A DNA stretch of 42,968 bases from Chelatococcus caeni. Its GTDB lineage: Bacteria; Pseudomonadota; Alphaproteobacteria; Rhizobiales; Beijerinckiaceae. Position numbers and translations under genes: made by a program. The stretch covers positions 1 to 42,968 of the forward strand of contig NZ_JACIEN010000013.1 of NCBI RefSeq assembly GCF_014196925.1. The letters run 5' to 3'. Numbering within the stretch: the stretch's first letter is position 1; every line of letters begins with the position of its first letter. A model generated the notes under the pieces. The model ran no database searches. It was not told where the DNA came from and saw nothing but the letters and a program-made list of their open reading frames with translations. This document shows positions 1 to 41,459 of this stretch, one piece after another.

Positions 1-14
1 AGGCAGGCTTAAGG
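1..14. promoter_or_regulatory. Edge-cut PmrA/QseB-type direct-repeat box upstream of the first L,D-transpeptidase
   Basis: The window opens with AGGCAGGCTTAAGG. The CTTAAGG at 8-14 and the seven bases before it match the complete box at 4993-5009 (CTTAAGGCAGGCTTAAG), so an upstream CTTAAG half-site probably lies just outside the window. It sits about 30 bp before the L,D-transpeptidase start. Only one half is visible; assignment rests on identity with the other copies at 4993, 5902 and 7770. Confidence 0.6.
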
Positions 15-45
15 TGGCCCTGACGTTTGAGCGTTCTGAACCGGA

Positions 46-789
46 ATGATTCGGAAGGCTGAGAGACAATTGAGTAAAACGACACTTTCCAGGCCGCTGG
101 CACGGCGCGCATTTCTGGTCGGCGCCAGCGCCTTTACACTGGCGGGCTGCGTATCGACACGCCAGCCGGTCCCGATGATGGCGCCAGTTGTCAAGGTCGA
201 GCCGGAACCCGCGGTTCCGCTGATGTATACGGCGATGCCGAACGAGCCGTTCCCCATTCCCGAGGTCGACGTCTCCCAGGTCGATCGCCGCTTCTGGCGG
301 ACGGAGGTCGACTATCCGACAGAGGAGGGGCCAGGAACGCTGATCGTCGATACGCCTGGCAAGTACCTCTACCATGTGAAGCCGGAGGGCCGCGCGACGC
401 GTTATGGCATCGGCGTCGGCCGCGAAGGCTTTGCATGGTCGGGGCGCGCGATCGTCGCCTATAAGCGCAAATGGCCGCGTTGGACGCCGCCCGACAGCAT
501 GGTCGCCCGCCAGCCCGAGCTGGAGCCGTACAGCATCGCAAATGGCGGAATGGACCCCGGACTCAACAACCCGCTTGGCTCGCGCGCGCTTTACATTCAT
601 GAAGGCGGGCGCGACACGCTCTATCGGCTGCACGGCACGCCTGAGGCCTTTTCGATCGGCCATGCCGTCTCGTCCGGCTGCATCCGGCTGCTCAATCAGG
701 ATGTCATCCATCTCCATGACGAGGTTCGCGATGGCAGCCCGATCGTCGTCATCCCCGACCCAATGATGTCGTATCTGGCGGTTGGCTAG
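46..789 (+). CDS. L,D-transpeptidase (YkuD/ErfK family), exported
   Basis: A periplasmic L,D-transpeptidase of 247 residues that would make 3-3 peptidoglycan cross-links or attach proteins to peptidoglycan. The N-terminus has an arginine pair (residues about 20-21), a short hydrophobic stretch and LAGC, a combined Tat-like and lipoprotein-type leader. The YkuD domain covers roughly residues 95-238 and ends in the family signature HGT...SSGCIRLLNQD, with the catalytic Cys at residue 212. ATG at 46 is used here; a TTG at 70, preceded by GAGAG, is an equally plausible start. A half-site of the cluster's CTTAAG box lies just upstream, which suggests control by the two-component system at 7.8 kb. 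It closely resembles the second transpeptidase at 1570-2181. Confidence 0.93.
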   Translation: MIRKAERQLSKTTLSRPLARRAFLVGASAFTLAGCVSTRQPVPMMAPVVKVEPEPAVPLMYTAMPNEPFPIPEVDVSQVDRRFWRTEVDYPTEEGPGTLIVDTPGKYLYHVKPEGRATRYGIGVGREGFAWSGRAIVAYKRKWPRWTPPDSMVARQPELEPYSIANGGMDPGLNNPLGSRALYIHEGGRDTLYRLHGTPEAFSIGHAVSSGCIRLLNQDVIHLHDEVRDGSPIVVIPDPMMSYLAVG

Positions 790-843
790 GTGGCGCCCGA
801 TGCGCGATGACGTCACGAGCTACGACATCGCTATGCAATCCGT

Positions 844-1500
844 CTACGCGGCCTTCAATGAGGGGAGCGGCAGGACATCATGTCTTGCCTTTTCGGCAAC
901 GAGATCGATCAGGGCCGATATGCCGGAATGCCCGGCTCCTTCCTCGATCACGCTGTCATGCTCCTGAAGGTATCGGATTTCCCAATGCCCGAATGACCGG
1001 ATCAGCATATCCTTCGTGTAGAGATGATCGGCGTGCGGCGGGCCACCGGTGCCGTAGCGAAGCTGTTCGACGCGATATCCCTGCATGATCAGAATTCCGC
1101 CAGGCTTCAGGCATGTGTGGAAGCCTTCAAACATCGTCTTGCGCAAATCGGGCGGTGCGAACTGCACGAAGATCGCGGCGACGACGTCGTAGGTTTCGGG
1201 TTCCCACTCCCACTTGGCAAGATCGGAATGCACGGTCTGCAAGGTCACGTCGCGTCGGCGGGCGAGGTCCCGCGCCTTTGCAAGCGCGACCGTTGAGGCA
1301 TCGAACGAAACGACGTCGAGCCCGCGCTCGGCGAGCCAGACGCCGTTGCGCCCCTCTCCGTCGGCGACCGCAAGCGCCTTCATTCCAGGTTGCAGCCGGA
1401 AGGCCTGCGAGGCAAGAAAAGCGTTTGGCTCGGTCCCGAAGAGATAGTCCTCACGTTCGAATCTGCTGTCCCAATTGATCTCCATTTTACGAAACCCCAT
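844..1500 (-). CDS. Class I SAM-dependent methyltransferase
   Basis: A cytoplasmic methyltransferase of up to 218 residues. After an N-terminal WDSRFEREDYLFGTEPN segment typical of TehB/UbiE-like enzymes comes the SAM-binding motif I (ALAVADGEGRNGVWLA, about residues 41-56), an acidic motif II residue in VVSFDAS, and the post-core segment LKPGGILIMQGY. The substrate cannot be read from sequence; related proteins include tellurite/thiol methyltransferases, which would suit a thiol-redox cluster, but that is inference. A start at MEINWDSRF (1485) is possible. It is the last gene of the leftward series dsbD-tlpA-small ORF-L,D-transpeptidase-methyltransferase, 69 bp after the preceding gene. Confidence 0.85.
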   Translation of the reverse strand: MGFRKMEINWDSRFEREDYLFGTEPNAFLASQAFRLQPGMKALAVADGEGRNGVWLAERGLDVVSFDASTVALAKARDLARRRDVTLQTVHSDLAKWEWEPETYDVVAAIFVQFAPPDLRKTMFEGFHTCLKPGGILIMQGYRVEQLRYGTGGPPHADHLYTKDMLIRSFGHWEIRYLQEHDSVIEEGAGHSGISALIDLVAEKARHDVLPLPSLKAA

Positions 1501-1569
1501 TGCTTTGAAGGCCTCCGGATCGTTGGAATGGGAGGCGTCCGTTCCAAATGATTGACTATGCCAACGCGG

Positions 1570-2181
1570 CTACAGCACAACGACTTTCGATCCTGCCGGG
1601 ACGCGACGATAGAGGTCGATGACGTCCTGATTCAACATGCGGATGCAGCCGGACGAGACGGCATGGCCGATGGTGTGCGGCTCATTGGTGCCGTGGATGC
1701 GAAACAGCGTGTCCTTACCGTCCTTGTAAAGGTAGAGCGCCCGCGCGCCGAGAGGATTGTTCGGTCCGCCCTCCATCCCGGCGGCCCAGCGCGCATATCG
1801 TTCGGGCTCGCGAGCGATCATGTTGGGTGTCGGCGTCCAGCGCGGCCATTCGCGCTTGAGACCAATATTGGCCGTGCCTGTGAACGCGAGTCCTTCGCGA
1901 CCGACGCCGACCCCGTAACGCATCGCCTTTCCGTTTTCCTGCACCAGATAGATGAAGCGATTTGTCGTATCGACGATGATCGTTCCCGGGGCATGCGGCG
2001 TGCGATAGTCCACCTGTTGTCGCCGGTTCTTCGGATCGACCCTGGAAGCCTCGATCCCAGCGGCGGGTTGTGAGCGATCGCGCGCCTGGGTGACAGATGT
2101 GGATGTCGTCGTGGTGCAACCGGCCACAACGAGGCTGACCAGCAGGGTGAAGAACGCGCCGCTTTTCCTAGACGAAATCAT
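1570..2181 (-). CDS. L,D-transpeptidase (YkuD family), lipoprotein
   Basis: A second L,D-transpeptidase, 203 residues. The leader ends in the lipobox VAGC (about residues 19-22), so it is probably a lipid-anchored periplasmic enzyme. The YkuD domain contains GVGVGREGLAFTG, an RWTPTPNMI segment, HGTNEPHTIGHAVSSGCIRMLNQD with the active-site Cys, and ends in VVVL. It is much shorter at the N-terminus than the copy at 46-789 but shares the catalytic half, so the two look like paralogs. Its ATG is only 6 nt beyond the stop of the 34-codon ORF and lacks a strong Shine-Dalgarno, pointing to translational coupling inside the dsbD-tlpA operon. Cell-wall cross-linking genes beside Dsb genes suggest a joint envelope-stress response. 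Confidence 0.93.
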   Translation of the reverse strand: MISSRKSGAFFTLLVSLVVAGCTTTTSTSVTQARDRSQPAAGIEASRVDPKNRRQQVDYRTPHAPGTIIVDTTNRFIYLVQENGKAMRYGVGVGREGLAFTGTANIGLKREWPRWTPTPNMIAREPERYARWAAGMEGGPNNPLGARALYLYKDGKDTLFRIHGTNEPHTIGHAVSSGCIRMLNQDVIDLYRRVPAGSKVVVL

Positions 2182-2187
2182 TGGTCG

Positions 2188-2292
2188 TTACGCATCGTTG
2201 GCCGCGCCCGGATCGAGGAAGGCGGATGGTTCAACTTTGGGGGTGAAGGGCAGCGGACCGGCCGCGATTTGCATCGGAACCACCGGCGTCAT
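2188..2292 (-). CDS. Candidate 34-residue small protein between tlpA and the L,D-transpeptidase
   Basis: The ATG overlaps the tlpA stop codon in an ATGA arrangement and the TAA lies 6 nt before the transpeptidase start, so the frame fills the gap between two genes almost exactly. The predicted peptide begins MTPVVPMQIAAG, is proline-rich with no cysteine or membrane segment, and ends acidic. I recognise no family. Coding status is inferred only from overlap geometry; it may serve as a translational relay rather than a functional protein. Confidence 0.5.
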   Translation of the reverse strand: MTPVVPMQIAAGPLPFTPKVEPSAFLDPGAANDA

Positions 2293-3092
2293 GTCGGACC
2301 CGTCATTTTCTCGATATTGGCGTTAAGGGCTTCCCGGGAGATTTCGCCCATATGCATGGACGCGAGGGTTCCGTCGGCTCTGAGGAAAAGGGTGATGGGA
2401 AGCCCCATCGTCCCGTAGTGCCGCGGGATCTGCATCGACTGATCGAGCAGTACGCGATCGAGCTTGAGATTCTCGGATGCGAGATAGGAGCGGATCGTGT
2501 CCGAGCCTTCGCCCTGATTGACGAAGAGGAAGGCGACGTCGTCCCTGCTTGCGGCGATCTCGGCAAGCAATGGCATTTCCCTGCGGCAGGGCGGGCACCA
2601 GCTCGCCCAGAGATTGATAACGGCCGGCTTGCCGGCGACGTCGCTAACGGCAAGCGGCGGGCCGTCGATCTGTTGCAGGGCGACGGTCGGCGCAGGCTGG
2701 CCGAGAGTCGCCTGGGTGAGTTGCGTGACGCCGATCCAGACGACAAGGCTGAGGCCAAGCGCGCCTGCGGCTGCCGCACCGGTCTTGAGGGAACGAATGA
2801 AGAAAGCGCTGATGATGGCGACGCCGATCAGACCGGCGACCGGCTCGAAGCCGCCTTGCCAGAATGCGATCACTCGCCACGGCTCTGCGATGAAGCTTTG
2901 CCAATGCAGGCCGACATGCCCGAGCCGCGCCGCGATCAGGCCGCCGATCAACGCCCATGTCGACCAGCGGCCGATCAGCGGGTCGACGCGGCGTGCCAGG
3001 ATCGACGTTGTGATCGTGAAGGCGAAAATGCCGAGAATGGCCGCGAACTGCGCCGCGGCGAAGACGAACGGGCCGATGCTGATGGCGTTCAT
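2289..3092 (-). CDS. TlpA-like thioredoxin with an N-terminal Lgt-like membrane domain
   Basis: A 267-residue membrane-anchored periplasmic disulfide reductase. Residues about 1-140 hold several hydrophobic segments; the stretch containing ARLGHVGLHWQ and FWQGGFEPVAGLIG resembles the core of prolipoprotein diacylglyceryl transferase (Lgt), though it is too short to be a complete Lgt. Residues about 140-265 form a TlpA/ResA thioredoxin fold with NLWASWCPPCRREMP; the redox cysteines are 166 and 169. The start at 3092 overlaps the dsbD stop by ATGA, so it is cotranslated with DsbD, its likely electron donor. A longer upstream frame exists but lies inside dsbD and has no protein-like composition, so it was excluded. 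Confidence 0.9.
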   Translation of the reverse strand: MNAISIGPFVFAAAQFAAILGIFAFTITTSILARRVDPLIGRWSTWALIGGLIAARLGHVGLHWQSFIAEPWRVIAFWQGGFEPVAGLIGVAIISAFFIRSLKTGAAAAGALGLSLVVWIGVTQLTQATLGQPAPTVALQQIDGPPLAVSDVAGKPAVINLWASWCPPCRREMPLLAEIAASRDDVAFLFVNQGEGSDTIRSYLASENLKLDRVLLDQSMQIPRHYGTMGLPITLFLRADGTLASMHMGEISREALNANIEKMTGPT

Positions 3093-4948
3093 TGGACCAG
3101 GCCCGTACGCTCGACCGAGGCCCACAAGGTCGCCTTGGTCACGTCGCCGACGAGGCGGGTTCCCGTTGCCTCCTGTCCCTCGGGACCGACGAAGATCATC
3201 GTCGGTGGACCGACGACCTGAAGGCTCTGCATGATCTGGCGCTGGTCGGGCGTGTTGGCGCTGACGTCGAGCTTGATGAGATTGAAGCGGGCGAGCGTGG
3301 ACTGGACGGCGGGATCGGAAAGAATGCTGCGATCGATGACCGCGCAGGTGATGCACCAGTCGGCCGTGACATAGAGGAGGCTGGGCTTGCCGTTGCCTGC
3401 GGCAAGCCCGGTTCGCAGCTCGGCCGGGGTCGCCGCGTTTCGGAAAGCCAGCGCTTGCGCAGAACCGGCGCCGCCCCTCGTGTTCGCGGTGAGGTTGCTC
3501 AGGGGACGGAAAGGGTCATTGGCCCCGCTGGCGGCGCCGACCGCGAGCACGATGCCGTAGAGGGCTGCGGCGATGCCGGCGGCCTTGGCGGTCCGGCGTC
3601 GCCCTGGTGCGTCGGGCCCGAGCGAATCGAAGGCTCCGAGCCACACCGCAAGACCAATGGCAAAGAGGGCCCAGAGCGCAAGAGCGGCCTCGGCGGGGAT
3701 GAGGCGCGAGACCATCCAGATCGCGGTGGCCACGAACACGAAGCCGAACGCCTGGCGCACCGAGGTCATCCACGCCCCGGCCTTGGGCAAGGCTTTCGGA
3801 CCGAGCGTGCCGAAGGCAATCAGCGGAATGCCCTTGCCGAGGCCGAGCGCGAAGAGCGATGCGGCGCCAAGCGCCACGTCGCCGGTCTGCGCGATATAGA
3901 TCAGCGCACCGGCGAGCGGTGCGGTGACGCACGGTCCGACGATCAGCGCGGAGGTGAAGCCAAGCAGTGCGGCCGAGGCCAGCGACCCGCGATCACCCTG
4001 TCCGATACGGCCGATGGCGTTCACCCAGGCCGATGGCAGCTGCAATTCGAACAGGCCAAACATGGACAGGGCGAGGATGACGAACAGGATCGAGACGGCG
4101 CCGATGGCGAGCGGAGACTGAAGCGCCATCTGCAGGTTCTGGCCCGACCAGGCGGCGACCACGCCGAGGAGCCCGAAGGCGGTCGCCATGGCCAAGACAT
4201 AGGCGAGCGACAGGTTGAACCCCCTGACCGCTGTGACCGAGTCGCCCTGACGCGCGATCGCTCCGGCGAGGATCGGGTACATCGGGAACACGCAAGGGGT
4301 GAAGGCGAGCAGCACGCCGAACATCAGGAAGCTTGCCAGCACCATCGCGACGCCGCCGTCTTTGAGCAGCGAGCCGATCAAGCCGCCATTATCCGCCGCG
4401 ATGGTGACGCCGCTCGCCAGCGCCGGCGCCCCCGAAATGGGAGCTGTCCATTCATGAGCCTGGGTTGCCGGTGCGCGTTGCTGCGGATCGGTCACGGCGA
4501 GCGTCGTGACATCGACATGTCGGACGATCGGCGGGTAGCAGATGCCGTTGTCCTGACATCCCTGATAGTGGACTTCGAGCGGGCCGGATGCCGAGGCTCC
4601 GAGAGGAACCACGGCGGCGACGTGGTCATGGAAGACGGTGGATGGGCCGAATGTCGGATCGTCTTTGCTTTGACCGTTGCCCTGGAGTTCGGGCATCGCG
4701 AGGTCGGACGCGCCCTGCGTGACGCCGAATTTATCATGATAGAGGTAGTAGCCTGACGCGATCGTCCATTGCAGCCGGACGCCCTCGTCGCCTTCGCGCG
4801 TCGCAGAGAGCTGGAACGCCTGATCGACGGGGAGCGGCATCCCTCCCGTGGACGTCACCTGCGCAGATGCCGGCGTGGATATCGCGGCAATCGCAATCAT
4901 CAGCACCGCGACAAGGACGGACCAGATAGTTCTCGAAGGCAACGGCAT
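3089..4948 (-). CDS. dsbD: Thiol:disulfide interchange protein DsbD
   Basis: The inner-membrane hub that carries electrons from cytoplasmic thioredoxin to periplasmic thiol reductases. The 619 residues give a signal peptide ending ASA, an alpha domain with GCQDNGICYPP, a beta membrane domain with the two membrane cysteines in FTPCVFPMYPI and GPCVTAPL, and a C-terminal thioredoxin-like gamma domain with the redox pair CITC at 532-535. All redox cysteines are present and the length is normal. It is the first gene of the leftward operon dsbD-tlpA-small ORF-L,D-transpeptidase-methyltransferase. A direct-repeat box at 4993-5009 lies 45 bp upstream of the start, arguing for control by the two-component system at 7.8 kb. 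Confidence 0.96.
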   Translation of the reverse strand: MPLPSRTIWSVLVAVLMIAIAAISTPASAQVTSTGGMPLPVDQAFQLSATREGDEGVRLQWTIASGYYLYHDKFGVTQGASDLAMPELQGNGQSKDDPTFGPSTVFHDHVAAVVPLGASASGPLEVHYQGCQDNGICYPPIVRHVDVTTLAVTDPQQRAPATQAHEWTAPISGAPALASGVTIAADNGGLIGSLLKDGGVAMVLASFLMFGVLLAFTPCVFPMYPILAGAIARQGDSVTAVRGFNLSLAYVLAMATAFGLLGVVAAWSGQNLQMALQSPLAIGAVSILFVILALSMFGLFELQLPSAWVNAIGRIGQGDRGSLASAALLGFTSALIVGPCVTAPLAGALIYIAQTGDVALGAASLFALGLGKGIPLIAFGTLGPKALPKAGAWMTSVRQAFGFVFVATAIWMVSRLIPAEAALALWALFAIGLAVWLGAFDSLGPDAPGRRRTAKAAGIAAALYGIVLAVGAASGANDPFRPLSNLTANTRGGAGSAQALAFRNAATPAELRTGLAAGNGKPSLLYVTADWCITCAVIDRSILSDPAVQSTLARFNLIKLDVSANTPDQRQIMQSLQVVGPPTMIFVGPEGQEATGTRLVGDVTKATLWASVERTGLVQ

Positions 4949-4992
4949 GCTCCCGCTTCATGTGACACGGGCGGGAGAGGTCTGATCGGCAG

Positions 4993-5009
4993 CTTAAGGC
5001 AGGCTTAAG
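4993..5009. promoter_or_regulatory. CTTAAG-N5-CTTAAG direct repeat upstream of dsbD
   Basis: Two exact CTTAAG hexamers begin at 4993 and 5004, 11 bp apart, with GCAGG between them. This is the geometry known for PmrA/QseB-type OmpR-family regulators, which bind two direct half-sites on one DNA face. It lies between dsbG (ending 5054) and dsbD (starting 4948), so it should serve dsbD. Confidence 0.8.
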
Positions 5010-5053
5010 AGGTGCGCGGTCTGCTGACGCCGCACGACGGCGACCGATACGGC

Positions 5054-5845
5054 CTAAAGCGGCCCGAACACGGTCTCGAGGGCGGTTCCCCGGGGGGCGC
5101 CGGCCTGCACGTTGAGGGAACCGTCGCTGCCTCTGGAAACGAGCCCCGGCGTGCCGCTGAAGCCCAGCCGCCTCATCAACTCGACATTGCTGTTGAGTTT
5201 GGCGTTGGTGTCGGCGGATATGGTCGCAAGAGGGGCGATGCCGCCGCTGGCATGGTTCAGTTCATTCTGAGTGAGCGCGGCCTGCTGATCGGATGCTTCC
5301 AGGATCGCGGCCGCCTTCCCGGCAGAATCGGCGCGGATCACGCCGACCATGATATGACGTAGCTGGATCTTGCCGGCCTCCACCCATGGACGCGCCGAGC
5401 GCCATAGCTGGTTACAGTACGGGCAGTTCGCATCGGTGAACACATAGACGACGCGCTCCGCATTGGGGTTTCCGTCCTGAACCCAGGCCGCGGCCTCGAG
5501 CGCTGCCCAAGCCTCGCGCTCGATCGGTTCGCTCGCCACCCGATTTAACTCGGCGTCAGCGACGGAACTGCCGCGCGCATCGATCAGCGCGCCGATCAGC
5601 GCGTAGTTGGAGTCCGGCATGACATAGATGGCCACCGGCTGCGTGCCCGAGCTCGCGGCGAATGCGCTCAATCCTCCCGGGACATCGAGAGGACCGTGGA
5701 CGGCCAGGCCCCGTTCCTCGAGAGCCTGCAAGACCGCCTCCCCCTCACGGCCAGCATCTGCCGAGGCCGTGCCGCTGTCGTCATTGCAGCCTGCGAGGCT
5801 CGCTGCGAAAGCGGCAGCGAGCAGAAGCTTCTTCAATTCGATCAT
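5054..5845 (-). CDS. dsbG: DsbG/DsbC-type thiol:disulfide interchange lipoprotein
   Basis: A periplasmic disulfide isomerase or sulfenic-acid reductase of 263 residues from the ATG at 5845; in-frame ATGs at 5851 and 5869 are alternatives. The leader IELKKLLLAAAFAASLAGC is a lipobox, so the protein is probably lipid-anchored, whereas classical DsbG is soluble. A DsbC/G dimerisation-like region precedes the thioredoxin fold with YVFTDANCPYCNQLW, redox cysteines 141 and 144, and the cis-proline loop SGTPGLV. DsbD is the known reductant of DsbC/DsbG, and dsbD is the next gene. A variant of the CTTAAG box lies about 57-73 bp upstream (5902-5918). Confidence 0.92.
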   Translation of the reverse strand: MIELKKLLLAAAFAASLAGCNDDSGTASADAGREGEAVLQALEERGLAVHGPLDVPGGLSAFAASSGTQPVAIYVMPDSNYALIGALIDARGSSVADAELNRVASEPIEREAWAALEAAAWVQDGNPNAERVVYVFTDANCPYCNQLWRSARPWVEAGKIQLRHIMVGVIRADSAGKAAAILEASDQQAALTQNELNHASGGIAPLATISADTNAKLNSNVELMRRLGFSGTPGLVSRGSDGSLNVQAGAPRGTALETVFGPL

Positions 5846-5901
5846 GCCCATTGAGACCGTCGCGTGCAAAACTCAGAACGTTGGCGTCCTCTCCCTGCCA
5901 G

Positions 5902-5918
5902 CTTAAGACAGCATTAGG
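5902..5918. promoter_or_regulatory. Degenerate copy of the CTTAAG direct-repeat box upstream of dsbG
   Basis: The sequence CTTAAGACAGCATTAGG keeps one exact CTTAAG at 5902 and an 11-bp-spaced partner ATTAGG from 5913. It is weaker than the dsbD and regulator copies, which would predict lower affinity. It is the nearest candidate promoter element for dsbG. Confidence 0.6.
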
Positions 5919-5952
5919 AGAGACGGCGGCCTCCGCAGGTGGACGCCGTGCG

Positions 5953-6129
5953 GGGTTGGGTGTCGAAAATACATTCAACCATCAGGACCTGCTCGACGAA
6001 TTGGCGAGGATCCCGTCGGCGTGTTCGGTCCTGGCAGCTCCGGGCTTCTCGGCGCAGGCGAGGACCGGATCGATGATGGCGCATGATCTGATCGCCGGAT
6101 CGCCGGCGACGCACCGGACGGCCTCAAGT
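5953..6129 (-). pseudogene. Relic of a BLH/ETHE1-type persulfide dioxygenase domain
   Basis: Directly downstream of the TIGR01244 gene, the minus strand encodes VAGDPAIRSCAIIDPVL...HADGIL in one frame and then FVEQVLMVECIFDTQP in another. Together these match the start of the metallo-hydrolase domain of BLH proteins (compare ADPETKKCAIVDTVYDF...ILEFV...VEWILDTHPHADH in the intact gene at 23288). The frame is broken and everything beyond the DTHP position is gone, including the metal-binding histidines. This suggests the neighbouring 147-residue protein was once the N-terminal half of a fused or adjacent BLH enzyme. Confidence 0.7.
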
Positions 6130-6147
6130 GCGAGGATCGAAGAAACC

Positions 6148-6591
6148 CTACATCGTTGGTTTGGCTGGACCTCGACTCACAGCGATCCGGACTTGGGCGT
6201 GGTCCGGTGCGGTCCCGCTCGCCGTGGCGACGAACTTGTCATTCTTGAATCCCGGAACGTCCGCGTCGCCGGCCAGCACCCACATGTAGAAGGAACGCGC
6301 GCCGGAATGGCAATGCGCCAGGACGGGGCCGTCCGACGCGACGATGGCTTCGGCGAAACGGCGAGCATCGTCCGCCGTCATCAAGGTGCTGGTGACGGGG
6401 ATGAACACGTAGTCGAGACCGGCCGCCTTGGCCGCCGCTTCTTCCACATCGGTTCCCGGCTGTGACGGGTCCTCGCCGTCGGGACGATTGTTGATGACGC
6501 TCCTGAACCCGAGGCGACGCAACTTAGCGAAATCGTCGGGCTGAAGTTGCCCCGCGACGGAAAACTTCTCTGTGACCGGAATGAGCTCCAT
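6148..6591 (-). CDS. TIGR01244 (DUF442) family sulfurtransferase/phosphatase-like protein
   Basis: A 147-residue cytoplasmic protein of the family fused to or found beside BLH persulfide dioxygenases. It starts MELIPVTEKFSVAGQ, has the family block FRSVINNRPDGEDPSQP, and carries the P-loop-like active-site motif HCHSGARS (about residues 93-100), with a Cys positioned as in rhodaneses and tyrosine phosphatases. The likely role is persulfide or sulfur transfer in sulfide detoxification; the exact reaction is not established from sequence. It lies between a decayed dioxygenase domain downstream and a divergent, broken sulfide:quinone oxidoreductase. It may be the last working gene of a decaying locus. 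A paralog in an intact operon is at 22810-23238. Confidence 0.88.
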   Translation of the reverse strand: MELIPVTEKFSVAGQLQPDDFAKLRRLGFRSVINNRPDGEDPSQPGTDVEEAAAKAAGLDYVFIPVTSTLMTADDARRFAEAIVASDGPVLAHCHSGARSFYMWVLAGDADVPGFKNDKFVATASGTAPDHAQVRIAVSRGPAKPTM

Positions 6592-6673
6592 GGGATGCCT
6601 GCTTGACTATTGTCGACATGGATTACACAGTTACATAAAATCAGAAGTAACGATCTGAAAATGGGAAAATTCA

Positions 6674-7047
6674 ATGGAAGCTGCCGTGCATCCGCAGGAG
6701 CCGAAGGCGCTGCAGCTCAAGCACCACATCATCATCGTCGGTGGAGGAGCCGCCGGTATAGCCGTTGCGAGTTCAAGCGACCGAGGCGTGATCTCGACAT
6801 CGCCGTCGCGGAGCCCTCGGAGACGCATTCGTACCAGCCGGGCAGGGATGCGGTCTCGACGGCAAATGCCCAGACGGCTGCAGCCGTGCGGCTTCAGTCT
6901 TCCGTGGTGGCCAACCTCCTGTCCGCCTGCGATGGCAAGTCGTTTCCGAAGGCCTATGACGGCTATGGCTCGTGCCCGCTGACCGTCGCGATCGGCAAGA
7001 TCAAAGGCAGCAGGATCGACAGCAAACATCGCGAGCGGGGGTGGTGA
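6674..7047 (+). pseudogene. Sulfide:quinone oxidoreductase relic, frameshifted with an internal deletion
   Basis: The first frame gives the FAD-binding start HHIIIVGGGAAGIAVASS. After a frame change near 6776 it continues RRDLDIAVAEPSETHSYQPG, the known start of flavin-dependent sulfide:quinone reductases. It then jumps directly to a C-terminal segment, AQTAAAVRLQSSVVANLLSACDGK...YDGYGSCPLTVAIGKI. About 125 residues remain of a usual 400 or more, so most of the middle, including the catalytic cysteines, is deleted. It is divergent from the TIGR01244 gene, an arrangement typical of sulfide-oxidation loci. Confidence 0.82.
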
Positions 7048-7060
7048 GCACGTGTTCGTC

Positions 7061-7699
7061 TCACTGTCCCTCTGCCTGCCGCTTTCGCGCGTCCGCCACA
7101 GCCAGTTTGAAGCCTTGATAGTCCAGGGTCGAAGTCTGGAAGGGCCCAATGAGGTAGGCTGGCGTGCCCGAGAAACCGATGGCATCGGCCTGCGCCATGT
7201 TGCGCTTGATGATGGCGTCGATTTCAGCTGCCTTGGCTGTCATGTCCGCGTCGAGGCGGCGCATGTCGATGCCCGCGGCCTCCAGACCTTCGCGCATTTT
7301 CTCCCTTGGGACGCCGACCCCGGGAATGCCCATCAGCGCGTGGTGCGCAACCTCGTATTTGCCCTGATATTTGGCGGCGAGCGCCATGGTCGCGCCATCG
7401 ATCGAGGTCGGCCGGATCACCGGCCAATCCTTGTAGACGAGGCGGATCTTGCCGTCTTCCTTCACGACGCGAGCAAGGTCGGGCGCGGACTTCTTGCAGT
7501 AGGGGCAGTTGTAGTCGAGGAAGGCCACGATCGTCAGGTCGCCGCGGGGGTCTCCGGAAACCGGGGCCGCGGGGTCATTGAGAATCATTTCCTTCGAAAC
7601 GTCGGCGTGTTGCGCGAGGGCGGAGCGTTGCATGAGAGGCACTGCGAGAGCCGCGCCTCCCATGGCGACCATGGCGCCGCGACGCGTGAGAGCTGGCAT
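7061..7699 (-). CDS. DsbA-family thiol:disulfide oxidoreductase, Tat-exported
   Basis: A periplasmic thioredoxin-fold protein of 212 residues from the ATG at 7699, chosen because AAAGGAG lies just upstream. The leader TRRGAMVAMGGAALAV is a twin-arginine signal. The mature part has FLDYNCPYCKKSAPDL with redox cysteines 65 and 68 and the cis-Pro loop GFSGTPAYLIG, and matches the Com1/DsbA-like group (DSBA, pfam01323) rather than classical DsbA. It shares its upstream region with the divergent response regulator; the CTTAAG box at 7770-7786 could serve both. With DsbD, TlpA and DsbG it completes an oxidising and reducing set in one cluster. Confidence 0.92.
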   Translation of the reverse strand: MPALTRRGAMVAMGGAALAVPLMQRSALAQHADVSKEMILNDPAAPVSGDPRGDLTIVAFLDYNCPYCKKSAPDLARVVKEDGKIRLVYKDWPVIRPTSIDGATMALAAKYQGKYEVAHHALMGIPGVGVPREKMREGLEAAGIDMRRLDADMTAKAAEIDAIIKRNMAQADAIGFSGTPAYLIGPFQTSTLDYQGFKLAVADARKRQAEGQ

Positions 7700-7769
7700 A
7701 CGGAATCTCCTTTCGATCGTGAGAGGGACAGGCGGCATACCGCCTGGAGCCGGGATCCACGCCTGCCAC

Positions 7770-7786
7770 CTTAAGGCTGGCTTAAG
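7770..7786. promoter_or_regulatory. CTTAAG-N5-CTTAAG box between the DsbA-like gene and the response regulator
   Basis: Exact CTTAAG hexamers begin at 7770 and 7781 with GCTGG between (11-bp period). The box lies 71 bp from the DsbA-like start and 49 bp from the response-regulator start, in a divergent intergenic region. It is the best copy for autoregulation by the adjacent two-component system. Confidence 0.82.
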
Positions 7787-7834
7787 GTCGGCACCCGATT
7801 GCGACTGTTCTGACGGAAGCTGAGTAAAGTTGTC

Positions 7835-8500
7835 ATGAGGGTTTTGGTCGTCGAAGATGACGCGGTGCTGCTGAACGGCCTGCAGGTCGGGCTGGGCCTG
7901 GCCGGCTTCACGGTCGACGCAGTCTCCACCTGCGCCGATGCCTCGGCTGCACTAAGAATCTCGGCCTTTGACGCGGTCGTTCTCGACCTGATGCTCCCTG
8001 ACGGCTCGGGGCTCGGCGTACTGGACGAATTGCGAGGGCGGCAGGTTGGAACGCCGGTCCTTCTTCTGACGGCGCGGGACAGCGTGCCCGACCGGATCGC
8101 CGGCCTCGACGCCGGCGCGGACGACTATCTGGGGAAGCCCTTCGATCTGAACGAGGTAGCCGCCCGGCTGAGGGCGCTGACGCGACGCGGCAACGGCGGC
8201 ACGTCCGCCTGCCGCATCTGGCGCGATCTGCGCCTCGATCCCGCGACGATGGCGGTCTCAAAGAGCGGTGAGGCGGTTCGTCTTTCGCGCCGCGAGTTCT
8301 CCATCCTGCATGCGCTGATGGATCGGCCCGGCCAAATCCTGTCGAAGTCGCAGCTCGAGGACCGGCTCTATGGCTGGCAAGAGGATATCGAAAGCAACAC
8401 GATCGAAGTGCACATCCACAATCTGAGGCAGAAGCTCGGCCCGGGCGTCATCGAGACGGTGCGCGGCGTCGGCTACAAGCTGGCGGAGGCGACCGCGTGA
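7835..8500 (+). CDS. OmpR-family response regulator (PmrA/QseB-like)
   Basis: A 221-residue response regulator. The receiver domain has the acidic pair E7-D8-D9, phosphoacceptor Asp51 in VVLDLMLPDGSG, the Thr of LLTARD and Lys in GKPFDLNE. The C-terminal winged helix ends SNTIEVHIHNLRQKLGPGVIETVRGVGYKL, the form seen in PmrA/QseB/TctD regulators. Members of that subfamily bind CTTAAG-type direct repeats spaced 11 bp, which is exactly what is found upstream of this gene, dsbD and (weaker) dsbG. Its stop overlaps the kinase start by GTGA. It is therefore the probable regulator of the whole thiol/cell-wall cluster. Confidence 0.94.
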   Translation: MRVLVVEDDAVLLNGLQVGLGLAGFTVDAVSTCADASAALRISAFDAVVLDLMLPDGSGLGVLDELRGRQVGTPVLLLTARDSVPDRIAGLDAGADDYLGKPFDLNEVAARLRALTRRGNGGTSACRIWRDLRLDPATMAVSKSGEAVRLSRREFSILHALMDRPGQILSKSQLEDRLYGWQEDIESNTIEVHIHNLRQKLGPGVIETVRGVGYKLAEATA

Positions 8501-9903
8501 CGTCGATCCGGAGCCGGCTCTTCCTGATCCTGATGATCACCACCGGCGTGGTGTGGATGTCGGCTATCGCCTGGATCTATCTCAGCACCCGCGCTGAGGT
8601 GGAGCGGGTTCTCGACGCCCGGCTGATCGAGGCGGCGCGCATGGTGAGCTCGCTGATCACCAGCCAGGAGATCGATCCGATGCGCGCAGCGCAGATTCCG
8701 GCCATCGAGCCAACCATGCATGCCTCCTACGATCGCCAGCTTTCGTGTCAGATCTGGGCGCTGGACGGGACCCTGGTCGGCCGTTCGGACGCAGCGCCGG
8801 CGACTCCCCTATCCGATGCCAAGGATGGCTTTTCGGAGACGCTCATCGATGGAGAGACCTGGCGCGTCTATGCCGTGGTCAACGCCGATCTGGGCATGCG
8901 CGTTCTCGTCGGGGACAATATGCGCGTTCGCGACCGGCTGGTCGCCGATGTCATCCGGGGCCTGGCCCTTCCGGCACTGCTGATCCTGCCGATCCTGGCC
9001 GGGCTGATATGGCTGAGCGTCAGGAAAGGCCTCGGGCCTCTCAACAAGATGGCTCATGCGTTGGAGACACGTCCGGCGTCCGATCTGAGCGCGCTGCCGG
9101 ACGTGGACACGCCCTCCGAGATCAAGCCCGTCATCCGCTCGCTCAACGGGCTGTTCGGACGCGTCCATGCGGCCCGCGAGCGCGAGCGCGACTTCACGGC
9201 TTTCGCGGCGCATGAACTGCGCACGCCGGTTGCGGGACTCAAAACCCAGGCGCAGGTCGCGCTGGGTAGCGACGATCCCGACATTCGGCGCAACGCGCTG
9301 CGCCAGATTGTGGTCGGAGTGGACCGGACCTCTCGGCTGATGCGTCAGCTCACCGACCTGACGAATGCCGAGCGGGGCGAAGCCGATGCCGACGGTCGTC
9401 GCGTCAACCTGGGCAAGCTGGTCGGCCAGCTCGTCGACGACATCCGCCAACACTACTCGGACGCGGTGCCGATCGAGATCGACGCCAAGCTGAACGATAT
9501 CTATCTTCAGCTCGACGCGTCGCTGTTCATGCTGGCGGTGCGCAACCTCATGGAAAATGCCGTGCTGCATTCCCGCAACGACGGCGTCGTCCGTTGCGGA
9601 GTGAGGATCGATGGCGACGCCGTCGCGGTGACCATTGAAGACAACGGCCCCGGAATCCCCGAAGACGAGTTGCCCAAGGTTTGCGAAAGGTTCTACCGCG
9701 GCCGCAACAAGACAGCGATGGGAAGCGGTCTCGGGCTCGCGATTGCCGAGCTGGCGGCGAAGCGCCTCGGCGGGAATGTCAGTCTCGGGAACCGTTCCGA
9801 GGGCGGTCTTCGCGCGGAGCTGCAATTCAGCAAAGCCATGCTGTCGCGAGCGCCCCGCGCCGATCCCGATCGCGCCGAGAACAGAGCAATCAGCTGCTCG
9901 TAG
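8497..9903 (+). CDS. Sensor histidine kinase of the QseC/PmrB type
   Basis: A 468-residue membrane kinase starting with GTG at 8497, overlapping the regulator stop. It has a transmembrane segment at about 9-30, a periplasmic sensor of about 120 residues, a second membrane segment around 155-175, a HAMP-like linker, and FAAHELRTPVAGL with the phospho-acceptor His239. The ATPase motifs follow as NLMENAVLHS, DNGPGIPEDE and GSGLGLAIA. The periplasmic domain holds one Cys (LSCQIW), so direct thiol sensing is possible but not shown. It should phosphorylate the regulator encoded just upstream in response to an envelope signal. Confidence 0.94.
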   Translation: MTSIRSRLFLILMITTGVVWMSAIAWIYLSTRAEVERVLDARLIEAARMVSSLITSQEIDPMRAAQIPAIEPTMHASYDRQLSCQIWALDGTLVGRSDAAPATPLSDAKDGFSETLIDGETWRVYAVVNADLGMRVLVGDNMRVRDRLVADVIRGLALPALLILPILAGLIWLSVRKGLGPLNKMAHALETRPASDLSALPDVDTPSEIKPVIRSLNGLFGRVHAARERERDFTAFAAHELRTPVAGLKTQAQVALGSDDPDIRRNALRQIVVGVDRTSRLMRQLTDLTNAERGEADADGRRVNLGKLVGQLVDDIRQHYSDAVPIEIDAKLNDIYLQLDASLFMLAVRNLMENAVLHSRNDGVVRCGVRIDGDAVAVTIEDNGPGIPEDELPKVCERFYRGRNKTAMGSGLGLAIAELAAKRLGGNVSLGNRSEGGLRAELQFSKAMLSRAPRADPDRAENRAISCS

Positions 9904-10065
9904 TAGAAGGTACAGCTTCTGACTACAGCCTACGCCACGGCCCGGACCTGCGGCACCCAGCCCGAGAAGAGGACTGTAAGGGCAAATGGCGCATTGCTTG
10001 TGCGGCCGATTCTAACGACGAAAGGTCAGCTCGCCCGCGTGTAGGAAATGTCCGGAAGGGGCGGA

Positions 10066-10938
10066 ATGTCGAAAGGAAAGCATCCGCGAGAAGCGACGTC
10101 GTCAGATCATTTTGGCAAGGCCAAAGACTTTGACTTCAGGCAAATAAGATATGTCTTGGCCGCCGCAGAGAGCACGAGCATTCGGGGCGCGGCGGATCTT
10201 CTGGGTGTGGAACCGTCTAGTGTCAGCAAAGCTATACGAGATTTCGAGAATCGAACAGGTGTCGGACTGTTCGAGCGTGGCCAGTTTGGCACTCGGCTGA
10301 CCGAAGCAGGCCGGCAGTTCATTGAGCAAGCGGTCCCGGCGATTCGACAGATCTGGCAGGCCATCCAGTGCGCGGAAGCTGCGGGGCGTGTGGAGACCGG
10401 CAGGCTGCGGGTCGGGGTGATCACGACGCTCGCCGGAGGATTTCTGCGGGAGCTCCTATGTAGATACGAGGCTGCGCACGCTGGAGTCCGGCTCGATATT
10501 CGTGATGGCGGGCGTCAGGACCATATTCGCACCATTCGCGCCCATCAGCTCGACGTGGGATTTTTTACGGGCAACGGCGAGGTGAAGGGGTGCAATACGG
10601 TGGAGCTCTGGCGAGAGCGGGTCCATATCGCCCTGCCTCGGTCCCATCCATTGTCCCGGCTCGAGAAGCTCGATTGGTCGCAGTTGGTCGATGAAGTGTT
10701 CATCGTATCCCGATTTGGTCCCGGACCGGAAATCCGTGACTACATCGTGCGGAGAATCTGTGACTACAGCACCTATCCGATGGTTGAATATCACGATGTG
10801 CATCAGGAGACCTTGATGCATATGGTCGCCATGGGCAAAGGAATAACGCCGGTCGTCGAGGCTTGGAGGGGGGTGACCATCCGTGACCTCAGCCTGGTCC
10901 CTCTTACAGAGCGTTCGATCCCTGCCAGCTCTATTTGA
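10066..10938 (+). CDS. LysR-family transcriptional regulator
   Basis: A LysR regulator of about 290 residues; the ATG at 10066 has AAGGGGCGGA directly upstream, while ATG 10048 is a weaker alternative. The helix-turn-helix is FRQIRYVLAAAESTSIRGAADLLGVEPSSVSKAIRDFENRTGVGLFER, followed by a substrate-binding domain with LRVGVITTLAGGFLRELLCRYE. The C-terminus stops at SIPASSI; continuing in frame past the TGA gives PWSHEGQN, which looks like the usual LysR tail (W-S-x-x-x-x-N). A nonsense change may thus have removed the last residues. Its target is unknown; it sits upstream of the acetone carboxylase regulator but need not control that operon. Confidence 0.85.
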   Translation: MSKGKHPREATSSDHFGKAKDFDFRQIRYVLAAAESTSIRGAADLLGVEPSSVSKAIRDFENRTGVGLFERGQFGTRLTEAGRQFIEQAVPAIRQIWQAIQCAEAAGRVETGRLRVGVITTLAGGFLRELLCRYEAAHAGVRLDIRDGGRQDHIRTIRAHQLDVGFFTGNGEVKGCNTVELWRERVHIALPRSHPLSRLEKLDWSQLVDEVFIVSRFGPGPEIRDYIVRRICDYSTYPMVEYHDVHQETLMHMVAMGKGITPVVEAWRGVTIRDLSLVPLTERSIPASSI

Positions 10939-11028
10939 CCATGGTCGCATGAGGGCCAGAATACGCACTTACATCCCGCCCAATGCTACCCTATGATACC
11001 GCCGTCGCCATTTGCTCGGGAGGAACAG

Positions 11029-12855
11029 ATGGTAGCCAGCATTACGAAGCGGGACTGGGAAGAGTACATGGCCATCGGGCGTGTTCCTCTCAGCGTCCGC
11101 GAGCCTGTGCTGCAAAGCTGGCAGCGCAGTGCCAGCAGCGGCATCACCAGTCTCAAGAGCGCGCCGAAGCTCGGCGAAAGCGAACTCGTGGCCCATCGCC
11201 AGGAAGCCCGCCGGTTGCGCCTTGGCGCGCGCGCCGCGCTTCAGAAGGCCGGATATCTTCTGAACCACACCGGCAACATGCTGCTTCTGTGCAGCAATAG
11301 CGGCGTCGTGCTCGATGTCGCCGGCGACGAGGTCACGCAGGCAAGGGGCCGCGAGAATCATCTGCATGTCGGCGGGCGCTGGAGCGAGTCCTCGATTGGC
11401 ACCAATGCCATTGGCACCGCCATCCATCTACGCCGGCCGATACAGGTGAACAGCGTCGAGCACTATTGCGAGGAAATCCACCGCTGGAACTGTGCCGCCA
11501 CGCCGATCACCGATCCCGCCGACGGCAGACTGCTCGGCATTGTCGATATATCCTGGCCGAACGACGTTGAACAGGCGAATGCGGCAGCGCTTTCGGCCAC
11601 GCTGGCGCTGCAGATCGAGGCCGATCTCGGTCGGCACCACGCGATGGAGCGAGAAAAGCTGATGGAGCGGCTGCAAATGCGCCGGCGCCGGCTTGGCTCC
11701 GACCCCGTGCTGGTGCTCGATCGCTCGGCGCGCGAAGTCTTTGCCAGCGAGGATTTCCGCCGTTTGTACGACGGCAACGAAGCGCTCAACTTCCTGCGCG
11801 CCTGCATTCCCAATCTGATGGGGCAAGCGCCGGAGGATATCGCCGAAGCGCTGTCGGGCTCCCTTCCAGGCGCCGATCTGGAAGTCATCGCCGAGGGCGA
11901 GGACGCTATCGGCGTCATGCTTTCGCTGCCGCGCAGGCGACCCGTGCCGGTCAGCCATGGAGCCGAGCTCGACAAGATCGGCCGCATCGGCGCGGTGACA
12001 TTCGAGCTGTGCAGGCAGGCCCGGCGACTCGCCGGAACGCATATCCCGATCCTCATCGAAGGAGAAACCGGAACCGGCAAGACCTTCCTTGCGCAGGCGA
12101 TTCACCGCGCCGCCGCCCGGCCGCCCGGCAGCTTCGAGATGCTCGACTGCTCGACGCTCACCACACGAGCGCTGCGCGAGGATCTTGCACGCGAGACCCG
12201 GCGTTCCGCCATGCTGGAGCAGCTTGCGGAAAGCGGCGGCGCGCTATGCCTCGACCGGCCGGGATCCTTGCCGCCAGAGGCCCAAAAGCTGCTGCTCAGC
12301 CTGCTGGAACAGGTCAGCGCCCGCGCGTGCAACGGCATCAAGCTGTTGTCCCTGTCATCCACGCCACTTTACGACGCCATGCAGGGTGGCAGGTTCCGCG
12401 GGGATCTCTACTATCGGCTGGCCGGCGCACGGCTGATCATACCGCCTTTGCGCATGCGCCGACAGGAAATCATCCCCTCGCTGCGTATGGTGGCCGAGCG
12501 CCACGCACGCACTACGGGCAAGCGCGAACTGCGCTTCACTTCCGGCGCACTCAGCCTGCTGGAGGCCTACCACTGGCCGGGGAATCTGCTTGAGATGTCC
12601 AATCTGGTTGCGATGCTCGATGCGCTGTCGCCGAGCGGCCTGATCGACGAGAAGAACCTGCCGGCCGAAATGCGTCGCCGGTCCGAGCGCAGGGAAGAGC
12701 ATACGCTGCGCGGTTCTGAAAAAGCCGAGATCCTCGAAGCAATCGAGTTTGCGGACGGAAATCTCACCGAAGCCGCGCGCCGGCTGGGTATCGCCCGCTC
12801 CACGCTCTATCTCAAGCTCGACAGCTACGGCATCGCTCGCACGCGCAAGTCCTGA
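11029..12855 (+). CDS. acxR: AcoR/AcxR-like GAF-AAA-Fis regulator lacking the GAFTGA loop
   Basis: A 608-residue regulator of the acetoin/acetone activator family, started at 11029 because GGGAGGA precedes that ATG. It has a GAF-type sensor (about residues 80-190, with WSESSIGTNAIGTA), an AAA+ domain with Walker A EGETGTGKT (about 344-352), and a C-terminal Fis-type helix-turn-helix GNLTEAARRLGIARSTLYLKL. Between DCSTLTTRALREDLA and LEQLAESGGALCLDRPG the segment that normally carries ELFG..GAFTGA is missing, and Walker B reads CLDRP instead of the usual LDE. Family knowledge says GAFTGA contacts sigma-54, so this one may act with sigma-70 or not hydrolyse ATP productively. Its position directly upstream of acxA supports a role in acetone-dependent control. 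Confidence 0.85.
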   Translation: MVASITKRDWEEYMAIGRVPLSVREPVLQSWQRSASSGITSLKSAPKLGESELVAHRQEARRLRLGARAALQKAGYLLNHTGNMLLLCSNSGVVLDVAGDEVTQARGRENHLHVGGRWSESSIGTNAIGTAIHLRRPIQVNSVEHYCEEIHRWNCAATPITDPADGRLLGIVDISWPNDVEQANAAALSATLALQIEADLGRHHAMEREKLMERLQMRRRRLGSDPVLVLDRSAREVFASEDFRRLYDGNEALNFLRACIPNLMGQAPEDIAEALSGSLPGADLEVIAEGEDAIGVMLSLPRRRPVPVSHGAELDKIGRIGAVTFELCRQARRLAGTHIPILIEGETGTGKTFLAQAIHRAAARPPGSFEMLDCSTLTTRALREDLARETRRSAMLEQLAESGGALCLDRPGSLPPEAQKLLLSLLEQVSARACNGIKLLSLSSTPLYDAMQGGRFRGDLYYRLAGARLIIPPLRMRRQEIIPSLRMVAERHARTTGKRELRFTSGALSLLEAYHWPGNLLEMSNLVAMLDALSPSGLIDEKNLPAEMRRRSERREEHTLRGSEKAEILEAIEFADGNLTEAARRLGIARSTLYLKLDSYGIARTRKS

Positions 12856-12884
12856 TCTTCGCGTCCGCAACATGTCCGTCAGGG

Positions 12885-12901
12885 CGTCCGAAAATCGGAC
12901 G
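12885..12901. promoter_or_regulatory. Inverted repeat in the acxA promoter region, candidate operator
   Basis: CGTCCGA-AAA-TCGGACG is a perfect 7-bp inverted repeat about 84 bp before the acxA start, surrounded by extra GTCCG copies (12861-12867, 12874-12878, 12901-12905). The same CGTCCG/CGGACG half-sites recur at 17525-17538. It is a good candidate binding site for the upstream regulator. I could not find a -24/-12 (GG-N10-GC) promoter in this 129-bp gap. Confidence 0.55.
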
Positions 12902-12984
12902 TCCGATGGTGCATTTCTGAATCCACATTTTCCCCTGCGGCCAATCCCGATCTTGCGGGTCTGGCCATGAAGGGAGGAATCAGA

Positions 12985-37273: not shown

Positions 37274-37278
37274 ACATC

Positions 37279-38436: not shown

Positions 38437-38453
38437 CGGAAAGGATAGTTGCA

Positions 38454-38600
38454 ATGTGGTATTTCGCCTGGCTTCTCGGCCTGCCGCTGGCGGCGGCGTT
38501 CGCCGTCCTCAATGCGATGTGGTACGAGCTCATGGACGACACGGCGAAGAAGCCGACGCAGCCGCTGCCCGCGGCCGGACACGCCCGCCCGGACCGGTGA
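38454..38600 (+). CDS. cydX: Cytochrome bd small subunit CydX
   Basis: A 48-residue single-span protein, MWYFAWLLGLPLAAAFAVLNAMWYELM then a polar tail, matching CydX/YbgT which stabilises the haem groups of bd oxidase. It follows cydB by 17 bp with GGAAAGGA as ribosome site. The frame is much shorter than the long overlapping open frames here, but the match is clear. Confidence 0.92.
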   Translation: MWYFAWLLGLPLAAAFAVLNAMWYELMDDTAKKPTQPLPAAGHARPDR

Positions 38601-38608
38601 GCCCCGGG

Positions 38609-38630
38609 ACGTCACCTTTCGGTGGCGTCT
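38609..38630 (+). terminator. Terminator-like hairpin after cydX
   Basis: GACGTCACC (38609-38617) pairs with GGTGGCGTC (38622-38630), with one G-T pair, around a TTTC loop. It is 8 bp past the cydX stop and between two convergent genes; the T-run is weak. Confidence 0.6.
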
Positions 38631-38730
38631 TGGCGTCTTCCAGCGGCGGCAGTCGCTTTGCCATGCCGCAGCGACGATGGTTCAGCGGCGCATGCCAAGG
38701 GCGGATGCCATGCCGCGTGGCGGCCTCGCT

Positions 38731-39684: not shown

Positions 39685-39747
39685 TTCTACGAACTTACGC
39701 AATATCGTATATGAGGCGCAGAGCAATATTCGAAGGAGGATCATCTG

Positions 39748-40650: not shown

Positions 40651-40714
40651 CTGCCGGATATCCGCAGCAGAATCACCCCGCACCCCGCTCAACCACAACG
40701 AAAAGGACAACCCT

Positions 40715-41449: not shown

Positions 41450-41459
41450 CAATCAGCTT

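Follow-up and report, generated by a model that had tools for sequence, protein, structure and literature searches.

A DsbRS-like two-component system of Chelatococcus caeni and its probable regulon of periplasmic thiol and cell-wall genes

According to the literature cited here, DsbRS of Pseudomonas aeruginosa responds to copper and activates dsbDEG (PMC10141476, PMC11195947, PMC13101516 and PMC12802237); the genes are laid out in Pseudomonas as dsbRS-dsbDEG (PMC13101516), copper makes the sensor kinase DsbS lose its phosphatase activity (PMC10141476) and copper binding leads to DsbS autophosphorylation (PMC11195947). Further sources describe DsbG as a guard of single cysteines that DsbD maintains in the reduced state (PMC7089426), give L,D-transpeptidases as a target of copper (PMC12729407, with reference to Peters et al. 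2018) and name the Scs proteins as suppressors of copper sensitivity (PMC5524982). In this study, a relative of DsbRS was analysed in a 42,968-nucleotide stretch of Chelatococcus caeni (hereafter the window), which is an entire contig (C13) of a genome of 5.43 Mb distributed over 19 contigs. We consider it likely that this kinase-regulator pair is an alphaproteobacterial DsbRS with an enlarged regulon, placed on an island common to different families and giving a copper-type response through a single sensor cysteine (Cys84). DNA binding, activation, copper as the signal and protection of L,D-transpeptidases are inferred computationally from gene order, motifs and homology.

Judged by its sequence, the window system is a DsbRS relative. 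A kinase-regulator pair adjoining dsbD, tlpA/dsbE and dsbG was found both in the window and in loci L182 and L183 of family f87, and many alphaproteobacterial relatives have no dsbG near the pair. The first 9.9 kb of the window read, from left to right, ldt1 (+), then the methyltransferase, ldt2, TlpA, DsbD, DsbG, sulfur transferase domain and DsbA-like genes (all -), and finally the regulator and the kinase (+). The features, with the putative DsbR boxes, are as follows:

1..13, + strand: right part of the DsbR box before ldt1, cut by the contig edge
46..789, + strand: L,D-transpeptidase 1 (ldt1, YkuD), above the Pfam gathering score
844..1500, - strand: S-adenosylmethionine (SAM) methyltransferase, final gene of the dsbD-tlpA-ldt2 run
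1570..2181, - strand: L,D-transpeptidase 2 (ldt2, YkuD), LdtE-like, far under the LdtE cut-off
2289..3095, - strand: TlpA/ResA-like thioredoxin with an Lgt-like membrane part, overlapping dsbD
3089..4948, - strand: DsbD, transmembrane thiol reductant hub (NCBIfam DsbD 509.6, above the cut-off of 330)
4993..5009: exact DsbR box CTTAAG-GCAGG-CTTAAG, 44 bases before the dsbD ATG (4948)
5054..5845, - strand: DsbG, CPYC (NCBIfam equivalog 284.6, above the cut-off of 124)
5902..5918: degenerate DsbR box with 2 mismatches, 56 bases before the dsbG ATG (5845)
6148..6591, - strand: sulfur transferase domain (above the TIGR01244 cut-off; the N-terminal part of Blh is also matched)
7061..7738, - strand: DsbA-like thioredoxin, CPYC
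7770..7786: exact DsbR box CTTAAG-GCTGG-CTTAAG between the DsbA-like gene (31 bases to its ATG at 7738) and the regulator (48 bases to its ATG at 7835)
7835..8500, + strand: DsbR-like response regulator, PmrA/QseB subfamily, under both NCBIfam cut-offs
8497..9903, + strand: DsbS-like sensor kinase (2CSK_N, HAMP, HisKA, HATPase)
8746..8748, + strand: codon of Cys84, the sole cysteine of the sensor domain (motif RQLSCQIW)

The initial annotation had placed the regulator in the PmrA/QseB subfamily, and this assignment holds, though below the cut-offs of the models concerned. Among solved structures the regulator is closest to BasR/PmrA (BasR, E 2.7e-50), and the scores obtained were 227.7 vs a cut-off of 330 bits for the PmrA/BasR model NF007928, and 208.4 vs 345 (QseB) and 265.4 vs 475 (QseC kinase) for models NF007663 and NF007664. 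A plain PmrA or QseB orthologue was rejected on these scores together with the position of the kinase outside the QseC group. The heavy-metal CusR/CopR type was rejected because the score with the CusR/CopR/CzcR model TIGR01387 (169.5 bits) is under its cut-off (279.2 bits).

In a tree of 57 kinases (without L155, a copy of L124, and one kinase under the length limit), a single branch with support of 100/99 splits 39 Cys kinases from 18 Phe/Tyr kinases, and E. coli QseC falls among the latter; L150 and L175 were flagged by the tool as meeting long branches. Cys84 is present in 50 of the 52 aligned kinases, the exceptions being a gap in L059 and Phe in L150, and the cysteine is also kept in L166 and L172, two Pseudomonas-like kinases presumed to be from this genus. 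L150 is an Acinetobacter kinase located beside metal efflux genes. Several loci look damaged: in L059 (9345-11336) the kinase is in two pieces and there is no box, in L068 the regulator and kinase are in pieces, and in L066 dsbD is in pieces. Also on the Cys-kinase side are G414 and two genomes of family f87, G265 and G170; in all three the gene order is kinase, regulator, dsbD, tlpA, dsbG, and in G170 cytochromes come next. Upstream of dsbD, the f87 loci carry GTTAAT-N5-GTTAAT (L182) and CTTAAT-N5-CTTAAT (L183), and only a partial site was seen in L184 (G414).

Direct repeats with an 11-bp period had been reported in the initial annotation, and all of them were recovered: the 4993 and 7770 copies are exact, the 5902 copy is degenerate, and the one preceding ldt1 is truncated by the contig edge. 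Together these four sites account for every one of the six CTTAAG found in the window. The single CTTAAG at 8-13 is the right half-site of the ldt1 box, and bases 1-7 (AG-GCAGG) continue CTTAAG-GCAGG-CTTAAG, which is whole in locus L122 (13028-13044; contig C1 of genome G055). The degenerate site is backed by the relatives L038, L042 and L044, with a 1-mismatch box at the equivalent place before dsbG. No clear -10 element was seen by eye in the flanks of the boxes. Yu et al. (2022) reportedly described the consensus TTA-N8-TTAA for P. aeruginosa DsbRS, with Cys82 as the sensor residue; the 4993 site fits this consensus, and CTTAAG-N5-CTTAAG satisfies that form.

Within the C. caeni genome, only three exact copies of CTTAAG-N5-CTTAAG were found (window 4993, window 7770 and C14:3050), against about 0.06 expected from the base composition of the window, and the same pattern read backwards gave none at spacing 5. 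When the spacing was freed to 0-30, there were still 3 CTTAAG pairs, all at spacing 5, vs 5 pairs for the backwards control. The genome-wide scan thus speaks against a motif equally frequent throughout the genome, and all three sites belong to one island, since window base 1 joins base 95 of contig C14 in G055. Mismatch-tolerant matching was uninformative: with up to 2 mismatches, the 58 forward matches in the genome are fewer than the 172 of the backwards control, and with up to 3 mismatches the excess in the window is weak (7 matches, 2.9 expected), 3 of 100 shuffles giving as many. A chance origin of the boxes was rejected on the rarity of the exact form in this genome and on its tracking of the regulator across genomes.

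This tracking was surveyed in 150 genomes of the order (Rhizobiales), with presence of the regulator set at E <1e-79. Ten genomes have it, at 63-100% identity, and the next best match reaches only E 1.7e-62. The exact box is present in all ten vs 11 of the 140 others (Fisher 3e-10), and the backwards control in 1 of the ten and 31 of the 140 (own count). Nine of the ten carry a box no farther than about 0.9 kb from the regulator. G124 is the exception: its sole exact box is about 222 kb away from the regulator and about 79 nt before a DsbA-family gene, and the regulator and an L,D-transpeptidase there flank a one-mismatch box. A box with the spacer consensus SCWGS, which was drawn partly from the same genomes, was counted by eye in 8 of the ten and in none of the 140.

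At the level of loci (near-copies included), 52 of 58 regulators are preceded by an exact box at no more than 300 nt, usually at a distance of 32-93 nt from the start codon, a count restricted to regulators with complete starts and at least 57% identity. The remaining six are L059, L128, L151, L185, L190 and L193; in L128 and L185 a transpeptidase gene comes between the box and the regulator, and in L190 and L193 the box has one mismatch. Counting all CTTAAG pairs separated by 0-30 nt in the regulator loci, again with near-copies included, gave 84 at spacing 5, 1 at spacing 16 and none at any other spacing. In L047 (9861-10001), from Phyllobacterium phragmitis, the kinase directly follows a box; this 12-kb stretch gave no regulator match, yet dsbD, LDT2 and the DsbA-like gene in it are each preceded by an exact box (three in all).

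Both transpeptidases of the window exceed the YkuD gathering score (60.2 and 85.0 vs 23.4 bits) and carry the catalytic SGCxR motif as SSGCIR. The ldt1 product, for which an alternative TTG start is possible at 70, has cysteines only at residues 35 (lipobox-like LAGC) and 212 (catalytic SSGC), and the ldt2 product only at residues 22 (lipobox-like VAGC) and 179 (catalytic SSGC). Among 18 genomes picked by regulator or kinase and not by L,D-transpeptidase, such a gene lies within 10 kb of the pair in 15, vs 0.96 expected by chance from the number of L,D-transpeptidase genes per genome (at least 4-21 among the matches listed); nearness was read mostly from annotated loci. Without the near-copies G055 and G465, 13 of 16 genomes remain linked (P 1e-14, assuming independent genomes and even gene placement). 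G124 is outside the 18 and was examined afterwards. An L,D-transpeptidase was seen in the stretch examined of 40 of 60 annotated loci, which include near-copies and L142 (dsbD without DsbS).

Among 70 distinct exact boxes, 46 face the regulator, 33 dsbD, 14 a DsbA-like gene and 12, directly, an L,D-transpeptidase (one box may face two genes), and in L188, L191 and L192 no gene other than the transpeptidase was recognised on the far side of the box from the regulator. Named plasmids carry the runs dsbD-tlpA-ldt-dsbA (Limimaricola and Neorhizobium), dsbD-tlpA-ldt (Paracoccus and Roseovarius) and dsbD-dsbA-ldt (Bosea), in most cases with overlapping reading frames; the record of A. tumefaciens pAt3 begins within tlpA and so cuts its run, and on a Methylosinus plasmid no dsbD-tlpA-ldt genes stand beside the pair. 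In a tree of L,D-transpeptidases the box-linked copies cluster (4 label changes vs a shuffled mean of 17.3) without forming one clade, in a topology with poor support and long branches. Of the 31 matches of two genomes 30 had loci; two sequences, including window LDT1, were dropped as short, and the box-linked transpeptidases of L065, L069 and L151 are also absent from this tree.

The boxes extend beyond Dsb and wall genes. A ccoN-like oxidase gene (275 bits vs a cut-off of 583) begins about 71 nt after the C14:3050 box, C14 encodes SoxA-like cytochromes scoring under the SoxA cut-off, and in G055 the ldt1 box separates ldt1 from a thioredoxin-cytochrome run. Four of the 70 boxes had no target in the first count; two were later found before SoxB-like genes, one before DsrE and one before a frame without a Pfam match. 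The SoxB-like genes start about 24 nt (L144) and 37 nt (L046) after the boxes and score 315 and 319 bits, under the SoxB cut-off of 550; in L123 a DsrE gene and a cytochrome c gene are each preceded by a box at a distance of about 49 nt, and in L050 a TauE gene adjoins a box. Two Hyphomicrobium records (L048:4722 and L049:4700) have exact boxes some 80 nt ahead of AcrB/CusA-like RND efflux genes, which makes RND efflux a possible further branch of the regulon in this genus.

Part of this arrangement appears to be mobile. In G055, which belongs to a different family, the island is 99.95% identical over window positions 1-10906, window base 1 continues directly into C14 base 95, and the whole ldt1 box brings the island to four exact boxes and one degenerate box within 10.7 kb. 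G055 also matches window 40836-42968, this stretch up to the contig end being joined to position 10906 in the opposite orientation, so that the window part from 40836 onward adjoins the DsbRS end of the island there. The match would be explained by recent transfer (or cross-contamination) plus rearrangement. Four records (L038-L041, from Bradyrhizobiaceae, Shinella, Tardiphaga and a Rhizobiales metagenome-assembled genome) share one 21,368-base stretch including the DsbRS island, with 50, 50 and 664 differences relative to the first record, and such a stretch common to different genera points to a mobile element. A plasmid megablast with window 1-10000 gave short pieces only, in 3 records. The first 94 bases of C14 (L034:1-94) are a repeat found at five places in the assembly, two of them base 1 of a contig, and resemble a transposase end by eye; the remainder of the ldt1 box (TAAG on the C14 strand, i.e. 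CTTA before window base 1) lies at C14:95-98, where the repeat ends. A repeated element inside the ldt1 box is the likely state of this genome, an assembly artefact being possible as well.

Further genes of the window were named by eye from their translations. Beside the DsbRS island, positions 10048-15138 hold a LysR regulator, a sigma-54-type activator and a hydantoinase/acetone-carboxylase-like gene. Positions 36475-42160 hold cytochrome bd-like genes and an OxyR-like LysR frame, and also a metallo-beta-lactamase (MBL) protein resembling persulfide dioxygenase (39748-40650), a peroxiredoxin-like protein (40604-41449) and an OsmC-like protein (41723-42160).

Taken together, these data are consistent with the following model. 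The kinase would sense periplasmic thiol-reactive stress, most likely copper at Cys84, and, by analogy with P. aeruginosa DsbS, would then cease to dephosphorylate the regulator. The regulator is predicted to bind CTTAAG-N5-CTTAAG and to activate its own operon, the DsbA-like gene, dsbG, the dsbD-tlpA-ldt2 run and ldt1, and also the thioredoxin, cytochromes and cbb3-like oxidase of C14, which adjoins in a relative. DsbD would pass cytoplasmic electrons to DsbG and TlpA, and these would keep the lone catalytic cysteine of the L,D-transpeptidases and other periplasmic thiols reduced, while newly made transpeptidase would replace the copper-poisoned enzyme. Where dsbG is absent, TlpA or the DsbA-like protein might be the reductant, which is a guess. 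A copper response supplying both enzyme and reductant would make sense, because the only cysteine of the transpeptidases outside the lipobox is the catalytic one and copper is cited as targeting these enzymes. Box placement suggests that many bacteria repair and re-supply copper-sensitive wall cross-linking enzymes in one response. The proposal of the initial annotation that one system co-controls DsbD, TlpA, DsbG, the DsbA-like protein and L,D-transpeptidases is upheld in part, as regards a shared rare box that tracks the regulator; binding and co-regulation themselves are predictions.

Several observations weigh against this model. The ldt1 box of C. caeni appears to be split by the repeated element, and for this reason ldt1 may have lost DsbR control in this strain; ldt2, behind dsbD, likely keeps box control, as far as its position indicates. 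No L,D-transpeptidase was found within the 8-10 kb examined in three of the 18 genomes (G099, G392 and G171), in the stretches examined of 20 of the 60 loci (several of them incomplete) or in the Pseudomonas-like loci L182-L184. The backwards control occurs in 32 of the 150 genomes and the exact box in 21, so a box without the regulator means little, the control being about equally common in the order. A DsbG match was obtained in only 9 of the 60 loci, and because dsbG is absent from most of the alphaproteobacterial stretches examined, DsbG cannot be the guard everywhere. Finally, the gene content would also fit a different signal, which is considered below.

A broader form of the model, which we put forward tentatively and regard as somewhat less probable than not, is that in alphaproteobacteria DsbRS protects periplasmic cysteine chemistry in general, with a dedicated L,D-transpeptidase as its core effector, copper or reactive sulfur being answered by enzyme plus reductants; L188, L191, L192 and G124 (with its one-mismatch box), where no target but the transpeptidase was recognised opposite the regulator, would then have wall remodelling, and not disulfide repair, as the main output. 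Judging by the sulfur genes near the boxes, reactive sulfur may act as a signal alone or with copper.

That reactive sulfur (sulfite, polysulfide or thiosulfate chemistry) replaces copper altogether as the natural alphaproteobacterial signal of the same regulator and boxes, with Cys84 sensing persulfidation or sulfitolysis and the transpeptidases being victims included in a sulfur-stress regulon, seems unlikely to us, with roughly one chance in four. Blh, BigR, YeeE or TauE relatives in 26 of the 60 loci (near-copies included), the boxes before SoxB-like, DsrE and cytochrome c genes and beside TauE, the SoxA-like cytochromes of C14 (below the cut-off) and the sulfur transferase at 6148 all agree with it. 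BigR, however, has a regulon of its own, and its linkage and that of Blh may therefore be plain clustering; heavy-metal P-ATPase and cbb3-oxidase relatives are found in 17 of the 60 loci each (15 being one Brucella/Ochrobactrum group), beside the RND efflux genes that follow boxes in the two Hyphomicrobium records. P. aeruginosa DsbS, the only tested member known to us, is moreover reported, in the sources cited above, to bind and answer copper.

It is improbable that the L,D-transpeptidases merely hitch-hike as neighbours on a mobile island, outside the control of the regulator. The island does move, as the 10.9 kb found in another family and the 21-kb stretch in four records of different genera indicate, but the same linkage is met again in divergent loci, whose regulators are 59-70% identical and whose gene orders differ. 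The transpeptidase gene stands behind dsbD-tlpA with a coding overlap, between the regulator and dsbD in L128 and L185, or on the opposite side of the box from the regulator, the stretch examined containing no dsbD (L188, L191, L192 and, with the one-mismatch box, G124), and 12 of the 70 boxes face it directly. An orthologue of PmrA/BasR or QseB with ordinary lipid A or quorum-related duties and with Dsb and wall genes as mere neighbours is very improbable: BasR is the nearest solved structure, PmrA and QseB are the nearest models and the box type matches theirs, but the PmrA, QseB and QseC cut-offs are all missed, the kinase lies outside the QseC group (100/99) with Cys replacing Phe/Tyr, and the boxes face Dsb and wall genes, no search aimed at lipid A genes having been made.

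The copper-type DsbRS reading would bring together facts published separately, namely that DsbD and DsbG protect single periplasmic cysteines and that copper poisons L,D-transpeptidases. A recurrent regulon making the enzyme and its reductants would join both and account for the control of Dsb genes by a copper sensor. One prediction is that copper alters 3,3-type cross-linking or lipoprotein anchoring via a known regulator, and the sharp box CTTAAG-SCWGS-CTTAAG can be used to read DsbR targets in genomes. The initial annotation, which knew of no described regulon of this content, went too far for the Dsb part, which is the DsbRS-dsbDEG of Pseudomonas; the wall and sulfur part was not found described in the literature searched, where, among the matches listed and with most subscription papers outside the search, no paper placed an L,D-transpeptidase or sulfur oxidation in a DsbRS regulon. 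The breadth beyond Dsb genes (wall enzymes etc.) looks new, and the founding DsbRS paper may list part of it.

Compared with known systems, the window system is closest to P. aeruginosa DsbRS, with which it shares a kinase and an OmpR-type regulator divergent from dsbD-dsbE(TlpA-like)-dsbG; Cys84 of the window may correspond to the sensor cysteine of P. aeruginosa, reportedly Cys82. It differs from it in that the boxes of the window and C14 also stand at the DsbA-like gene, two L,D-transpeptidases, cytochromes and a cbb3-like oxidase, and those of relatives at SoxB-like, DsrE and TauE genes, dsbG being often absent. PmrA/BasR and QseB share with it the regulator subfamily and a direct-repeat box with an 11-bp period, whereas the kinase group, sensor cysteine and target genes are different. 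In E. coli, Depuydt et al. (2009) are said to have described DsbD-DsbG protection of single cysteines with L,D-transpeptidases as substrates; the players are the same (DsbD, DsbG and L,D-transpeptidases with one catalytic cysteine), but in the window they are encoded together under one box, and we know of no such cluster in E. coli. The Scs systems comprise a DsbD-like, DsbA/G-like and TlpA-like set tied to copper; to our knowledge they include no L,D-transpeptidase, and the regulator context of the window system is different from theirs.

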